Source of the DNA: Pirellula sp.
GTDB taxonomy: Bacteria; Planctomycetota; Planctomycetia; Pirellulales; PNKZ01
NCBI GenBank assembly: GCA_013822735.1
Contig: PNKZ01000002.1
Location: 248,001-312,000, forward strand
Reading direction: 5' to 3'
DNA length: 64,000 nt
Below the pieces are notes generated by a model that did no database searches, was not told the origin of the DNA, and was given only the letters and a program-made list of their open reading frames with translations. Of the stretch, positions 35,785 through 59,528 are shown in pieces. Made by a program: the position numbers and the translations under genes. Each line of letters opens with the position of its first letter. Positions within the stretch are counted from its first letter, which is position 1.

Positions 35785-36726
35785 CTACGCCAATCTCACC
35801 AGCTGCGCCGCCCCCACGAGGCCGGCACGGTTGCCCAATCGGGCCTGCATCACGTCGGTGCAGCCATGAGGATTTAAGGTCGCCGCATCGATCGCGTTGC
35901 GTGCGGCCTCGGCAAACAAGCCGAAGTGGTCGTCGATCATGCCTCCCCCGAGAATGATCCGCTCGGGTAGCAGCGTGTGCTGAATGGTCCAGACGGCGAC
36001 CCGCACGGCGGCTAGCGCTCGATTCACAATGTCGCGCGCCCGGGAGTCGTCGTTGGCCAGCGCTTGAAAAACGCCGCGCGCATCGCCGAAGCCGGCGGCT
36101 TTTCCTGCCGCGGAAATCGCCGTGCCGGAAGCCAGCGACTCGATGCAGCCGCGAATGCCGCAGTAGCACTCCGGCCCGTCGGGCTCGATCGGCAGATGGC
36201 CTAACTCCGGATGCGTATCGGCCGCGCCGCGGTAGATGCGCCCGTCGAGCAAGATGCCCGAGCCGACGCCGGTGCCGAATGTGAGCATGACGAGCGAGCG
36301 GCGATTTTCTCCGGCGCCGAAGTATGCCTCGCCGACGGCCGCCGCATCCGCATCGTTCTCGAGCATCGCCGGCCGATCGAAAGTCGTCCGCAGCGGCGTA
36401 ACGATGTCGACGCCGTCCCAAGTCGGCAACGTGTGCGGATTGTCGATGGTCCCGCGCTTTGGATTCACCGGCCCGGCACAACCGACGCCGATTCCCGCCA
36501 GCTCCGCCCGCAATCTTCCCGCTTCGCTCAAGCAGGCGTCAATTGCGTCAGTGATCCGCGTGACGCCCCGCACGAACCCGAGGGCCGCTTCCGTCGGAAA
36601 CGCCCGCTCGGCCAAGATGCGGCCCTGTTCATCGACGACGCCGACGGCAATCTTCGTCCCGCCGATATCGACGCCGGCGGCAAGTACGCCGCGTTCAGGG
36701 TTCAGGGTTCGAGGTTCAAGGTTCAC
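35785..36726 (-). CDS. ROK-family sugar kinase (glucokinase-like)
   Basis: 313 residues from the GTG at 36726; TTG at 36732 is an alternative. The ATP-binding VDIGGTKIAVGVVD, the LENDADAAAVGEAYFG catalytic segment (Asp base), FGTGVGSGI, and the zinc motif HPELGHLPI...CYCGIRGCIE are all present, fixing the ROK family. It would phosphorylate glucose or a related sugar. The first ~14 residues (NLEPRTLNPERG) are encoded by a five-unit heptanucleotide repeat. The normal ROK N-terminus begins about where that repeat ends, so either translation starts inside the repeat or the repeat has replaced the native start. It follows the FG-GAP gene on the same strand. Confidence 0.88.
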   Translation of the reverse strand: MNLEPRTLNPERGVLAAGVDIGGTKIAVGVVDEQGRILAERAFPTEAALGFVRGVTRITDAIDACLSEAGRLRAELAGIGVGCAGPVNPKRGTIDNPHTLPTWDGVDIVTPLRTTFDRPAMLENDADAAAVGEAYFGAGENRRSLVMLTFGTGVGSGILLDGRIYRGAADTHPELGHLPIEPDGPECYCGIRGCIESLASGTAISAAGKAAGFGDARGVFQALANDDSRARDIVNRALAAVRVAVWTIQHTLLPERIILGGGMIDDHFGLFAEAARNAIDAATLNPHGCTDVMQARLGNRAGLVGAAQLVRLA

Positions 36727-36727
36727 T
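36693..36727 (-). repeat. heptanucleotide tandem repeat (GTTCNNG type, 5 units) at the ROK kinase start
   Basis: On the + strand GTTC begins at 36693, 36700, 36707, 36714 and 36721, exactly every 7 nt. On the gene's sense strand the unit is GAACCYT. It lies within the first codons of the ROK gene. Because 7 is not a multiple of 3, unit gain or loss would shift the reading frame from an upstream start. Confidence 0.9.
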
Positions 36728-36766
36728 GGCAAATGATCTATTCAGAGCTCAACTATATCGCATAGC

Positions 36767-36844
36767 GCGAGCGGCGGGGTTTATCCCCGCCGTCCGGCAA
36801 TTCGCGGCGCGAAGAAGTCGGCGGAGATAAACCCCGCCGCTCGC
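36767..36844. repeat. 78-bp palindrome with 26-bp arms
   Basis: Arms 36767-36792 and 36819-36844 (GCGAGCGGCGGGGTTTATCC...) are complementary with one mismatch around a 26-nt loop. It lies between the stop of the FG-GAP gene and the start of the ROK gene, on whose transcript it would be a very stable hairpin. I saw no second copy in the window. Confidence 0.8.
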
Positions 36845-36854
36845 TTCGAAATCG

Positions 36855-38027
36855 CTACTTCCGCACTTGCTCGAAGTAGAACGTCCCCTTCTTGTTCGAC
36901 ACGGCAATGTCGTACAGGCCGTCGCCGCTGATGTCGCGTACTTCGAATTGGGTGCCGACCCCGGAATCGTTGTCGATTTGATGCGGCTTCCACATTGGTT
37001 TGCCCCCTTGGCGCGTGAGCTCATACCAATAGAGCACGGCCGGGTCGCCGGGATTGATGTCTCCCTTGGGGCCATGAGCCCAGTAGCGCTTGCCCGTGAC
37101 GAAATCCATCAGGCCGTCGCCGTTCATGTCGACGAAGCACATCGCGTGCGTTTGCGAGAAGGTCTTGTCGATTTCATGCGTCGTAAACTTGCCGGGCTCA
37201 GTTTGTTCGTGCCACCAGATGCCGATTTGATGCGCGGCGCTCGAAAGGATGTCGGCATCGCCGTCGCCGTCGAAATCGTACACATACATCTGTGCCGCCG
37301 GTCCTCCGAGCTGCGCTTCGTGGAATTTCCACTCGCCGGTCGAGTTCTTATCGGCCGGCGCTTCCCACCAGCCGCTCGGCGTCACGACGTCGTTGCGGCC
37401 GTCGCCGTTGATGTCGCCCCGGCCGATACCGTGATAGAACTTCCGCGCCATATCGACCCCCTTCGCCGAAATGGCCGTGATGCCCCATTTGGCCATCGGG
37501 TCTTTGTCGCGTCGCGCGATGCCCACATACTTCTGCGGACCATCGGCTTCCTTCGGTTCCGGCGCGGTGCCCATCAGCATTTCCTTCGTGCCGTCGCCGT
37601 CGACGTCGAAGTATTCCGGGCTCTCGTTGTTCGTCACGTCGGCCACGACATAGCGTCCCCACGGCCGTGCCACGCCCTTGGGATTCTCCAGCCACACGGT
37701 CGCTTGGCCGGGAAATTCAACAACGAGCAAATCGTCCCAGCCGTCGCCGTTGAAATCTTCGGCCCAGGCCTGAAAGCATTGGCTGTACTTGAGCGGATCG
37801 AAGTCGCGCGCCTGTTCGCGCACGGCGTTCAGCTTCCAATTGGGCGCGGCGTAGAAGCCTTCGCCGTTGGCGATGTCGAGCTTGCCGTCGTGGTTGAAGT
37901 CGCCGACGGCGACCCCCTCGGCGCGAAACTTCGGGTCGATGTGCGTCTTCTTGAACGAAATCTCTTCTGCAAAGGCGGCGGGAGCCAATGCCGAAGCGAG
38001 TGCGAAGGCGAGGAGCGTGCGTGTCAT
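36855..38027 (-). CDS. exported FG-GAP/VCBS-repeat protein
   Basis: 390 residues from the ATG at 38027, which gives a clean signal peptide (MTRTLLAFALASALAPAAFA). Several Ca-binding FG-GAP-like blades follow, recognised by VGDFNHDGKLDIA, DFNGDGWDDLLV, DVDGDGTKEML, DINGDGRNDVVT, DFDGDGDADIL, DMNGDGLMDFVT and DISGDGLYDIAV: at least seven D-x-[DN]-G-D-G loops spaced ~40-60 residues. This predicts a beta-propeller outside the cytoplasm. Such proteins are abundant in planctomycetes; the ligand is unknown. It lies 75 bp downstream of the exported amidohydrolase gene on the same strand. Confidence 0.85.
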   Translation of the reverse strand: MTRTLLAFALASALAPAAFAEEISFKKTHIDPKFRAEGVAVGDFNHDGKLDIANGEGFYAAPNWKLNAVREQARDFDPLKYSQCFQAWAEDFNGDGWDDLLVVEFPGQATVWLENPKGVARPWGRYVVADVTNNESPEYFDVDGDGTKEMLMGTAPEPKEADGPQKYVGIARRDKDPMAKWGITAISAKGVDMARKFYHGIGRGDINGDGRNDVVTPSGWWEAPADKNSTGEWKFHEAQLGGPAAQMYVYDFDGDGDADILSSAAHQIGIWWHEQTEPGKFTTHEIDKTFSQTHAMCFVDMNGDGLMDFVTGKRYWAHGPKGDINPGDPAVLYWYELTRQGGKPMWKPHQIDNDSGVGTQFEVRDISGDGLYDIAVSNKKGTFYFEQVRK

Positions 38028-50634: not shown

Positions 50635-51246
50635 TTACGAGCTGCGCGTTGCGAGTTGTCGTTCGACATACTTCGCCAAGAGATCCGTTTCTAAGTTCAC
50701 GACGTCGCCCCGCTTGAGATCGCCGAGCGTGGTGACGGCCAGCGTATGCGGAATGAGTTGCACGCTGAAGCGTTCGGCCTCCGCGGCGACGACCGTGAGG
50801 CTCACGCCCGCGACGGTGATCGAACCCTTCTCGACGAGTTGCCCGGCATATTGCTTTGGAAAGCTAAACCACATTTCCGACCAAGGGCTGTCGGTCGACT
50901 GCCCGAGGTCGTTGCGTTCTGTGAGCGTGCCGGTGCAATCGACGTGGCCGGTGACGAGATGGCCGCCAAGCCGATCGCTGAGCCGCAGCGATCTTTCGAG
51001 GTTGACGAAGCTGCCGGGCTTCAACGCCCCGAGGCTGGTGCGTGCGAGCGTCTCCGGCCCGGCTTCAAACTCGAGCACGCCGCCGTTGAACTTCACCACG
51101 GTGAGGCAACAGCCGCTGACGCAGATGCTTTCCCCGAGTGTCGCTTCCGCGGCGATCGCAGGCGCGGCAATGCGCAACCGTTTCCCCGGCGGCTCGTCCC
51201 GCACTTCGACCACGGCGGCTTTGAGTTCGACGAGACCGGTGAACAT
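50635..51246 (-). CDS. ribE: riboflavin synthase, alpha chain
   Basis: 203 residues from the ATG at 51246. It begins with MFTGLVE, the universal N-terminus of the family, and has the duplicated lumazine-binding domain: GESICVSGCCLTVV near 45-58, and in the second half GSITVAGVSLTVV. NLERSLRLSDRLGGHLVTGHVD marks the inter-domain segment near 85-106. It dismutates two 6,7-dimethyl-8-ribityllumazines to riboflavin. A five-unit heptanucleotide repeat sits 11 bp upstream of the start codon. The longer in-frame upstream reading is Arg-rich and unlikely to be translated. No FMN riboswitch is recognisable in the short leader. Confidence 0.95.
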   Translation of the reverse strand: MFTGLVELKAAVVEVRDEPPGKRLRIAAPAIAAEATLGESICVSGCCLTVVKFNGGVLEFEAGPETLARTSLGALKPGSFVNLERSLRLSDRLGGHLVTGHVDCTGTLTERNDLGQSTDSPWSEMWFSFPKQYAGQLVEKGSITVAGVSLTVVAAEAERFSVQLIPHTLAVTTLGDLKRGDVVNLETDLLAKYVERQLATRSS

Positions 51247-51256
51247 GGGGCGGAGG

Positions 51257-51288
51257 GTTCGGGGTTCAGAGTTCAGGGTTCGTGGTTC
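51257..51288 (-). repeat. heptanucleotide tandem repeat (GTTC type, 5 units) upstream of ribE
   Basis: On the + strand GTTC begins at 51257, 51264, 51271, 51278 and 51285, exactly every 7 nt. The sense-strand unit is GAACCYY. It occupies the place of the Shine-Dalgarno region of ribE and is the same repeat type as at the ROK kinase start. Confidence 0.9.
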
Positions 51289-51320
51289 AACATACCAACG
51301 ACATGTCGCTTTGGGCAGCG

Positions 51321-58241: not shown

Positions 58242-59459
58242 CTACTTTTTGGCGGCGACTTCTTCGTTGAGCTTCACTTCGTACGGCAGCTTGCCGCGCC
58301 AGAGGGCCAAGGCCCGACCGGCGTGCGAGAGGTACGTGAAGTACGATTCGGTTTGTTCCGGTGTAAGGTTGTCGACGGTGCGGACCATCCATTGGCCGGC
58401 CTTCGCCAAGACTTCGCGCGGCGGATGGCATTCCTTCGGCGCCAACGCCCACCATTCCAAAGCGTGACCGGTCGCGAGGATGCGATCTGCGTTGGTGTCG
58501 CCGCTGACGTTTTCCTTCGAGTCGCTCGAAGCGGGCTGGTTCGGCCAGCGGCCGTCCCAGTATCCGTCGGAATGTTGATGACGCACGAGCCGGCCGGTCA
58601 TGTCTTGCATGAAGGCGATGATTTCCGCGCGGACGGCGGGCGACAAGACGTGCTCGGTGTCGTCGACCCGGAGAAACATCGCAAGCGTGTGCAAGCGATG
58701 GTTGCCGAAGCAGACGCCGCGCGGCATTTCTTCGCGCATCATCCGTTGGGAGAGCCGGTCAAAAGACATCTCTTGTCCTTCTGTGGTGCGCCAGCGTTTG
58801 GTGGGGGGCAAGAACGCGATCATCGTCAGGCCCGACCATTCGTACTCGACTTGATTCAGATTGAAGTCGTGCATTACCTGATCGACCATGGCCCGATACG
58901 TCGTTTGACGTAGCGCCGTGACGACGGGGAAATCGAGCGGCGTGCCGACTTCCGAGAGTCCGCCGACGGTGTGATCGAAGTGGCTCGACGACAAATTTCC
59001 TTCCTGCACGCGGACACGAACGCCGAACGGCGTATCGATCAAGAGCGGCTGCGCCTTCTCGCCGTAGAGTGCCATGAAGCGGCGATTGTCGGTAACGATC
59101 CCGCGCAGTTCTTCGCCCGAGAAGAAGGCCGGATCTTTAAACTTCGCGTACGGCGTCCAGAACCGCAGAGCGTGGTCGATGTGGTTGAGCTTCGTCTTGG
59201 CTCCCATGTTGCGCGGGCGGAGCTTCAGTAGCACGCGTTCCAATTGTTCGTCGCTGACGACCGCGGGAATGTCGTATGTCGGCCTAATGGTGAGCGGTTC
59301 GTTGCGCAGCACCGGCGGCGCCAGTTCCGCGTTGCGGTGCCGCCACTGCACCGAAGCCCAAGCGGTTCCGGTCGACACGATCAGAACTTGCACGAGCAAA
59401 AACTTCGCCACGCCCGAAGCCCGAACGTGTGCGTATGCGGAATCGAAAGGCTTGTTCAT
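58242..59459 (-). CDS. membrane-anchored protein of unknown function with an alpha/alpha-toroid-like C-terminus
   Basis: 405 residues. An N-terminal hydrophobic helix (FLLVQVLIVSTGTAWASVQW, located ~20-39) anchors or exports it. Residues ~75-330 are mixed, with HxxHA and SSSHFDHTVGGLSEVGTP segments. The later part (RLVRHQHSDGYWDGRWP, then ATGHALEWWALAP and LSHAGRALALWRG) has the GYWDG/HALEW pattern of squalene-cyclase-like or terpenoid-cyclase alpha/alpha barrels, although no QW motifs or DxDD are present. Enzyme activity is unassigned. It lies 69 bp downstream of a polytopic membrane-protein gene, and the gap is filled by 7-nt repeats. Confidence 0.62.
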   Translation of the reverse strand: MNKPFDSAYAHVRASGVAKFLLVQVLIVSTGTAWASVQWRHRNAELAPPVLRNEPLTIRPTYDIPAVVSDEQLERVLLKLRPRNMGAKTKLNHIDHALRFWTPYAKFKDPAFFSGEELRGIVTDNRRFMALYGEKAQPLLIDTPFGVRVRVQEGNLSSSHFDHTVGGLSEVGTPLDFPVVTALRQTTYRAMVDQVMHDFNLNQVEYEWSGLTMIAFLPPTKRWRTTEGQEMSFDRLSQRMMREEMPRGVCFGNHRLHTLAMFLRVDDTEHVLSPAVRAEIIAFMQDMTGRLVRHQHSDGYWDGRWPNQPASSDSKENVSGDTNADRILATGHALEWWALAPKECHPPREVLAKAGQWMVRTVDNLTPEQTESYFTYLSHAGRALALWRGKLPYEVKLNEEVAAKK

Positions 59460-59462
59460 TGT

Positions 59463-59515
59463 GAGACCGAAGACGAAGGAGAGACCAGAGACAGAAGACT
59501 GGAGACTGGAGACTC
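59463..59515 (-). repeat. heptanucleotide tandem repeat (AGAC type) upstream of the 58242 gene
   Basis: On the + strand AGAC begins at 59482, 59489, 59496, 59503 and 59510, exactly every 7 nt, and also at 59464 and 59471. The sense-strand unit is GTCTCCA-like. It covers the region just upstream of the ATG at 59459, where a ribosome-binding site would be. Confidence 0.88.
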
Positions 59516-59528
59516 GAGCGAAGAAGTA

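Follow-up and report, generated by a model that had tools for sequence, protein, structure and literature searches.

Tandem arrays of heptamers are known from several bacterial phyla, but neither their origin nor their function is settled in the sections of the literature cited here. In cyanobacteria, they are called short tandemly repeated repetitive (STRR) sequences. Here we describe such an array in a 64,000-nt stretch of Pirellula sp. DNA (contig PNKZ01000002.1, positions 248,001 to 312,000, hereafter the window), where GAACCYT units overlap the putative start codon of a ROK-family sugar kinase gene and probably encode the first residues of the protein.

Marine Beggiatoaceae have direct repeats of TAACTGA, and a start codon is faced by 147 of the 170 sets (MacGregor 2015, PMC4679880). 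As for the arrays described below, a few sets lie inside open reading frames (ORFs), mainly near protein ends. The sections of that paper used here also reveal differences: one heptamer there versus several here, sets that are mostly start-facing whereas stop edges are nearly as frequent here (17 of the 36 arrays within 35 nt of an edge), only one inverted repeat versus many pairs here, and a forward TAACTGA repeat that has stops in all frames (PMC4679880). The GGGAATC repeats of Xanthomonas and the GGGGA(C/T)T repeats of Nostoc (PMC4692102) are likewise heptamers with variable positions, present in 2–26 units and frequent in close inverted pairs (70 and 75 cases); 89–93% of the Xanthomonas repeats are intergenic, as are most of the arrays here. 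In contrast, that study centred on G-quadruplex formation and placed the repeats nearer the upstream gene, and the sections used here make no mention of a strand rule, outward at starts as well as at stops. Three heptanucleotides are reported for Calothrix (PMC4692102) which, compared by description, recalls the several heptamers per genome found here.

In the window, Tandem Repeats Finder (TRF) reported a 7-mer in 4.7 copies at 36693–36725, and a unit scan of the minus strand at 36690–36724 read GAACCTT GAACCTC GAACCCT GAACCCT GAACgcg. The original prediction, made from the letters of the DNA, had described a five-unit repeat; the array itself was confirmed by TRF and by shuffling, and its exact content is four GAACCYT units plus a GAAC remnant. 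It is imperfect, two of the four units being identical, and perfect repetition extends, by eye, over at most 18 nt (2.6 units). With up to three mismatches, the pattern GAACCYTGAACCYTGAAC gave six overlapping matches in the window, three in the kinase array and three at 51257–51288, whereas 100 shuffles of the window gave a mean of 0.12 and a maximum of one.

From the upstream stop, the kinase frame reads TGA ATA GAT CAT TTG CCA GTG AAC CTT GAA CCT CGA ACC, and continues CTG AAC CCT GAA CGC GGC GTA CTT GCC GCC GGC GTC GAT ATC. According to this codon reading, the residues N-L-E-P-R-T-L-N-P-E are therefore repeat-encoded, as had been proposed. Ahead of the VDIGGTK motif, the only canonical starts are TTG 36732 and GTG 36726, the next one in frame being TTG 36615, past the motif. 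Since none lies between the array and the motif, the repeat is translated if the complete kinase uses a canonical start. The absence of ATG was thus correctly anticipated, but GTG, probably the start in use, is not at the edge of the array: it overlaps it by one base, its last G doubling as array base 1. Also in frame, within the array, is a CTG (36705). By arithmetic, a perfect (GAACCCT)n tract read in this direction has a TGA each seven codons in all frames; the critical unit of the kinase array is GAACCTC, which yields CGA. Among 42 intergenic GAACCCT arrays of at least four units read in the same direction, 29 have one open frame, five have two and eight have none. A single readable frame is therefore common.

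Membership of the protein in the ROK family is indicated by its match to PF00480 (E 9.6e-65), the VDIGGTK motif and an AlphaFold model of mean pLDDT (predicted local distance difference test) 92.5. Its score against TIGR00744 (ROK glucokinase) was 193.5 bits, below the cut-off of 260.35, so that it does not enter this subfamily, and the kinase substrate was therefore not assigned. In the model, residues 1–7 fall below 50 and the first strand spans residues 15–21; for solved ROK chains, the alignments that reach the N-terminus start at query residue 11–18. The repeat-encoded residues are thus predicted to sit ahead of the kinase fold.

Orthologs of the kinase, 71–75% identical, were found in three congeners (G001, G002 and G003) of the window's genome (G000). 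Their motif reads VDIGGTK or IDIGGTK, and the leaders ahead of it, compared partly by eye, differ among congeners. In G001, GTG codons lie 14 and 12 codons, and a TTG nine codons, ahead of the motif; in G002, a GTG adjoining the preceding stop lies ten codons ahead; and in G003, an ATG lies 13 codons ahead. ATG is therefore likewise missing before the motif in two of the three congeners (G001 and G002). Across the four nearest relatives, leaders are 8–14 residues long and all different, and the array is missing, G001 having a single GAACCCT unit. When the genome contigs were scanned for the kinase, the 14 loci obtained all encoded remote ROK proteins, none of them above 38% identity.

The kinase array belongs to a larger class. 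In 772 kb of the window's contig (C2), 20 period-7 tandem arrays were found, 16 of them intergenic, versus none in a third-order Markov control; when the score was made stricter and the random control changed, the figures were 18 versus two. Similar excesses were observed in 400 kb of a second contig (nine versus one) and in 200 kb of G002 (seven versus one). A 200 kb sample of G011 gave no period-7 array, as did its control, despite 32 pattern matches in that genome, and the class can therefore be generalised only so far. Periods 14 and 21, multiples of seven, were also in excess, as was period 15 (13 versus two), mostly within genes (4/13 intergenic). Heptamers read by eye in the window's genome include GAACCCT, TGACCCC, CGCCACT, GTCTCCA, CTAGCTA, TCATAAC and GAATGCT, among others. 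Of 62 arrays in three samples, 52 were intergenic and ten lay within seven predicted genes; one of these ten, GGCCGGC, resembles ordinary coding sequence. Allowing one mismatch, 13 of 57 genomes contain the GAACCYT pattern, although several of them have just 1–4 matches and one (G014) is no higher than its control; the extremes are the congener G002, with no match, and G010, a member of another family of the same order, with 794.

Intergenic arrays lie close to genes, the median distance to the nearest edge being 12.5 nt, versus 40 nt when arrays are placed at random in these gaps. Within 35 nt of the edge of a coding sequence (CDS), the G-rich strand pointed outward in 32 of 33 untied arrays, that is in all 18 at starts (one tie) and in 14 of 15 at stops (two ties). 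Over all 52 intergenic arrays, outward exceeded inward by 21 to 3 at starts (one tie) and by 18 to 6 at stops (three ties), with the arms of one inverted pair included in these strand counts without being independent observations. Several of the inward exceptions are, on our reading, arms of inverted pairs. The same tendency was seen in the stretches of G010 selected for GAACCCT matches, where arrays within 35 nt were outward at 9/11 starts (p 0.065) and 19/21 stops. The arrays thus form a gene-edge heptamer class, in excess over chance, mostly intergenic, oriented and near gene edges. Among the papers listed by literature searches, none described the outward strand rule or arrays of this kind in this group, which is no proof of absence.

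For GAACCCT itself, the pattern with up to three mismatches gave 177 overlapping matches, versus 26 for the reversed control. At least 52 arrays were defined around the matches listed, after removal of duplicates and of arrays with fewer than two exact GAAC. Among these, six were in CDS, 39 lay within 35 nt of an edge and were all outward (26 at starts, 13 at stops), six lay beyond 35 nt and one had no edge in view. Of the 27 start-edge arrays among the matches listed, a count that excludes arrays reaching more than 3 nt into the gene, 22 end 0–8 nt before the start codon and the other five at 19–30 nt; the start codon is ATG in 25. The kinase array, which overlaps its start, differs in kind from these. 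In 148 inner units, positions 2–4 were constant in 145–146 and position 1 in 131, and positions 5–7 change mainly between C and T.

Inverted pairs obey a strict order: among the matches listed, 15 GAACCCT pairs had the G-rich arm first and none the reverse. Their spacers, of 2–90 nt, are unrelated by eye. Likeness of the arms within a pair was 0.803, versus 0.819 with shuffled partners, and 1908 of 2000 shuffles reached the observed value. Copying of one arm from the other in a hairpin was rejected, the arms being no more alike within pairs than between them. In stretches of G010 picked for GAACCCT matches, 58 arrays were retained after dropping those without a gene on both sides; eight were in predicted CDS, and neighbouring arrays were G-then-C in 19 cases and C-then-G in none. 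Some arrays of G010 are mosaic, and some pairs appear by eye to have a different heptamer in each arm. A general G-first rule for hairpins was also rejected: in four samples, other intergenic inverted repeats were G-first in 50 cases versus 34 (12 ties, p 0.10), whereas those bearing heptamers were G-first by eight to none, with one tie.

Arrays also occur in frame within pheS, pheT, a U32-like gene and the genes of a 1028-aa and a 1441-aa protein. PheS and PheT exceeded the curated TIGR00468 and TIGR00472 cut-offs; for the U32-like gene, the top NCBIfam matches were all below cut-off. The pheS and pheT genes stand together at 80687–83848 of C2 in G000 (locus L035), both with in-frame arrays. 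Residues 166–194 of PheS align where the E. coli chain 3pco_A has only residues 160–163. This insert is common to G000 and G001, and a short loop takes its place in G002, G003, G004 and G006. The pheT insert is found in G000 only; it is missing from the aligned G001, G003, G005, G006 and G009, and G002 has an unrelated, longer insert at its position. In the U32-like gene, compared in G000, G001 and G003, the insert is present in the first two, with different spacers, and absent from the third. Frame is preserved in the coding cases compared. Upstream of ribE, read by eye, five units precede the ATG in G000 and six precede a GTG in G001, G003 retains a remnant, and G002 has an inverted pair of a different heptamer, ATTTATC. 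In this G002 leader (L124), the variant units apparently follow the same left-to-right order in both arms and are not mirrored (by eye). In the U32-like gene of G001 (L196), the spacer between the GAACCCT arms apparently contains, by eye, an AGTACTG-like array, as if nested.

These observations would be explained if heptamer arrays accumulate at gene edges in the genus, normally just outside the CDS and with the G-rich strand outward. The kinase array would sit one step inside the gene, overlapping the GTG start, and would be translated into some ten residues that form a tail, disordered and not conserved, before the kinase's first beta strand. The enzyme would be functional with or without this tail, and selection would hold the array in frame and stop-free, as it would in pheS, pheT and the U32-like gene. 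In line with this reading, the kinase body has a low ratio of nonsynonymous to synonymous substitutions (dN/dS) relative to G001, about 0.18 (dN 0.185, dS 1.043, proportion of synonymous differences pS 0.563). We consider it probable that the kinase tail is a translated gene-edge heptamer array which is tolerated, rather than a switch.

Several points weigh against this. The start of the kinase is a reading of its sequence, the evidence on switching is a comparison across species, gene edges come from a custom gene caller and no standard annotation, and the start-edge distances omit arrays that reach more than 3 nt into genes. The dN/dS estimate is only rough, dS being near 1. The pheS loop is naturally variable, with other, unrelated sequence of various lengths in G005, G007, G008 and G010, and its array is therefore less telling than that of pheT. 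Finally, the ribE arrays differ between species in unit number and composition and so are not static; together with the coding copies, they indicate that, within one genus, arrays are gained, lost or altered from species to species.

Alternatively, the C-rich, G-poor and unstructured array might serve as a translation leader that stands in for the Shine-Dalgarno sequence and attracts an RNA-binding protein, either S1 or another, a site that would have slipped beyond the start codon in the kinase. MacGregor made a proposal of this type for TAACTGA, according to the sections used here (PMC4679880), and the 22 of 27 start-edge GAACCCT arrays nearest their start codons do occupy the position of a ribosome-binding site. 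This role seems to us rather unlikely, since stop edges, where no leader is needed, obey the strand rule too (14/15 untied), a tRNA-Trp gene, which needs no leader either, has a GAACCCT array ending 12 nt ahead of it, and the kinase array follows the start codon.

A second alternative is a mobile palindromic element, of the type of miniature inverted-repeat transposable elements (MITEs), repetitive extragenic palindromes (REPs) or Rickettsia palindromic elements (RPEs), spread by a transposase, of which single arrays such as that of the kinase would be broken halves. Inverted pairs are indeed frequent, with the 15 of GAACCCT type among the matches listed, four of which have spacers of exactly 8 nt. 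The in-frame arrays moreover recall RPEs, which, in the sections consulted, are palindromic and stand in frame in cellular protein genes that are retained (PMC10969869, PMC6649704), as do the arrays of pheS, pheT and the U32-like gene. RPEs are described there as ten families of roughly 150-bp elements that carry a conserved peptide (PMC10969869, PMC6649704), whereas the present arms are tandem heptamers around unrelated spacers of 2–90 nt: insert length and spacer differ, and only the heptamer-encoded parts recur among coding inserts. There is hence no core of the kind shared by MITEs or REPs, the two arms of a pair resemble each other no more than arms taken from separate pairs do, and the G010 pairs with two heptamers, seen by eye, do not fit a single element. 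Of the 57 genomes, 43 have Y1 transposases (PF01797), but G011, despite its 32 array-pattern matches, does not. Three insertion sites were aligned with relatives in search of target-site duplications, and the flanks were strongly diverged. A mobile palindrome was rejected as main model on account of the unrelated spacers and arms, and we hold it to be unlikely.

The original prediction had raised a possible on/off switch. On this view, slipped-strand gain or loss of a 7-nt unit would shift the frame between GTG and VDIGGTK and thereby switch the kinase on or off in a fraction of the cells. Seven is not a multiple of three, ribE unit numbers do vary between species, and phase variation by heptamers is known in the Haemophilus influenzae adhesins, according to the sections used of PMC5953494. 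In silico, six of eight unit changes (loss of any one of the four units, or duplication of unit 3 or 4) left no ATG, GTG or TTG in frame, as predicted; the other two (duplication of unit 1 or 2) brought an array-internal TTG in frame with VDIGGTK, so that the frame is not broken by every change. Against a switch, the perfect run of 2.6 units is below the minimum of three used for 6–9-nt units in a Neisseria screen, in the sections consulted (PMC5953494), even though TRF counts 4.7 copies with imperfect units included, and such an imperfect tract with an 18-nt run would probably be a poor substrate for slippage. The array is missing from the three congeneric kinases (one unit in G001). The class is mostly non-coding, with 10 of 62 arrays in predicted CDS, and its coding members stand in frame, even in the tRNA-synthetase genes pheS and pheT, for which an off state is implausible. 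We thus regard the switch as improbable, and prefer a tolerated, translated gene-edge array, in which a repeat would provide an N-terminus without switching. This cautions against equating coding repeats with phase variation.

As to how the arrays arose, arm polarity and unrelated spacers suggest that each arm grew independently and strand-specifically, rather than that a fixed element transposed. The strand rule at both starts and stops, the independent arms and the in-frame tRNA-synthetase copies narrow the possible origins. One conceivable source is a telomerase-like, template-directed activity in this bacterial order, adding G-rich heptamers to free 3' ends at breaks. If two extended ends were joined, G-rich and then C-rich tracts would stand head to head, and the scars would persist where harmless, at gene edges or in frame in protein loops and tails. 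Such a model would explain why the G-rich strand points outward at both kinds of gene edge, as well as the 15–0 and 19–0 arm orders, the arms that are not copies, the unrelated spacers and the mixed-heptamer arms of G010; alone, it leaves the closeness of arms to gene edges unexplained. Vertebrate interstitial telomeric sequences are, in the sections used, comparable short G-rich tandem repeats at internal sites (PMC8537989, PMC2246262, PMC7215372), and by our reasoning head-to-head joining of two repeat tracts would give the G-first, C-last order; these vertebrate sequences are eukaryotic, with one repeat and a known telomerase, whereas many heptamers and no candidate enzyme are found here. 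No reverse transcriptase (PF00078) was detected in the array-bearing G001, G003 and G023, and Ku was not significantly associated with arrays (5/8 array-rich genomes versus 7/22 others, Fisher p 0.21). Y1 transposase, reverse transcriptase and Ku, considered as helper enzymes, showed no convincing association with the arrays. We give the telomerase-like model very little credence.

Very improbable, too, is that the kinase starts at a non-canonical codon (CTG 36705 in the array, or ATC/ATT) or that the array is a mis-assembly of the contig: the CTG is in frame and the other counted start-edge arrays lie outside genes, which makes the kinase exceptional, but GTG candidates stand at a similar distance in two congeners and like arrays occur at tens of sites in the genome.

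Features of the window are collected in Table 1. At Rfam gathering thresholds, the window gave no match. The stretch 36690–36860, which covers the kinase array and the neighbouring inverted repeat, had an RNA fold z of -5.26.

Table 1. Coordinates of the kinase array, its codons and neighbouring features (window positions)
Feature	Position	Strand	Basis
ROK-family sugar kinase gene	35785..36726	-	Pfam PF00480, E 9.6e-65
Imperfect GAACCYT array, 4 units + GAAC, read as NLEPRTLNPE	36690..36724	-	TRF, pattern and unit scans, codon reading
GTG, likeliest start codon (putative); last base is array base 1	36724..36726	-	Codon reading; GTG candidates in G001 and G002
TTG, alternative start codon	36730..36732	-	Codon reading
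TGA in frame, upstream limit of the open frame	36742..36744	-	Codon reading
Strong inverted repeat in the gap between the FG-GAP gene and the kinase array	36767..36844 (C2 284767-284844)	.	Inverted-repeat scan
FG-GAP repeat protein gene, upstream of the kinase	36855..38027	-	Profile search and gene calling
Riboflavin synthase gene ribE, downstream of the second array	50635..51246	-	Family profile match
Second GAACCYT array, non-coding counterpart; ends 7 nt upstream of the ribE ATG	51254..51289	-	TRF, pattern scan, ortholog comparison
Array of the CAGTCTC heptamer, 29 nt upstream of a predicted gene start (gene 58242-59459, minus)	59488..59518	-	TRF

Elsewhere in the window, at 1811–1906, a GGAGAC-like G-rich array is followed by a TCTCCC-like C-rich array, a G-first, C-last bracket made of other units, located in the gap that separates a stop at 1811 from the following start at 1936, both on the plus strand. 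Further hairpin families, such as CCAAGCACCAAATTCCAAACAA and GTGGGTCGAGCAAAGCGAGGCCCACGC, recur in the intergenic regions of C2 in G000.
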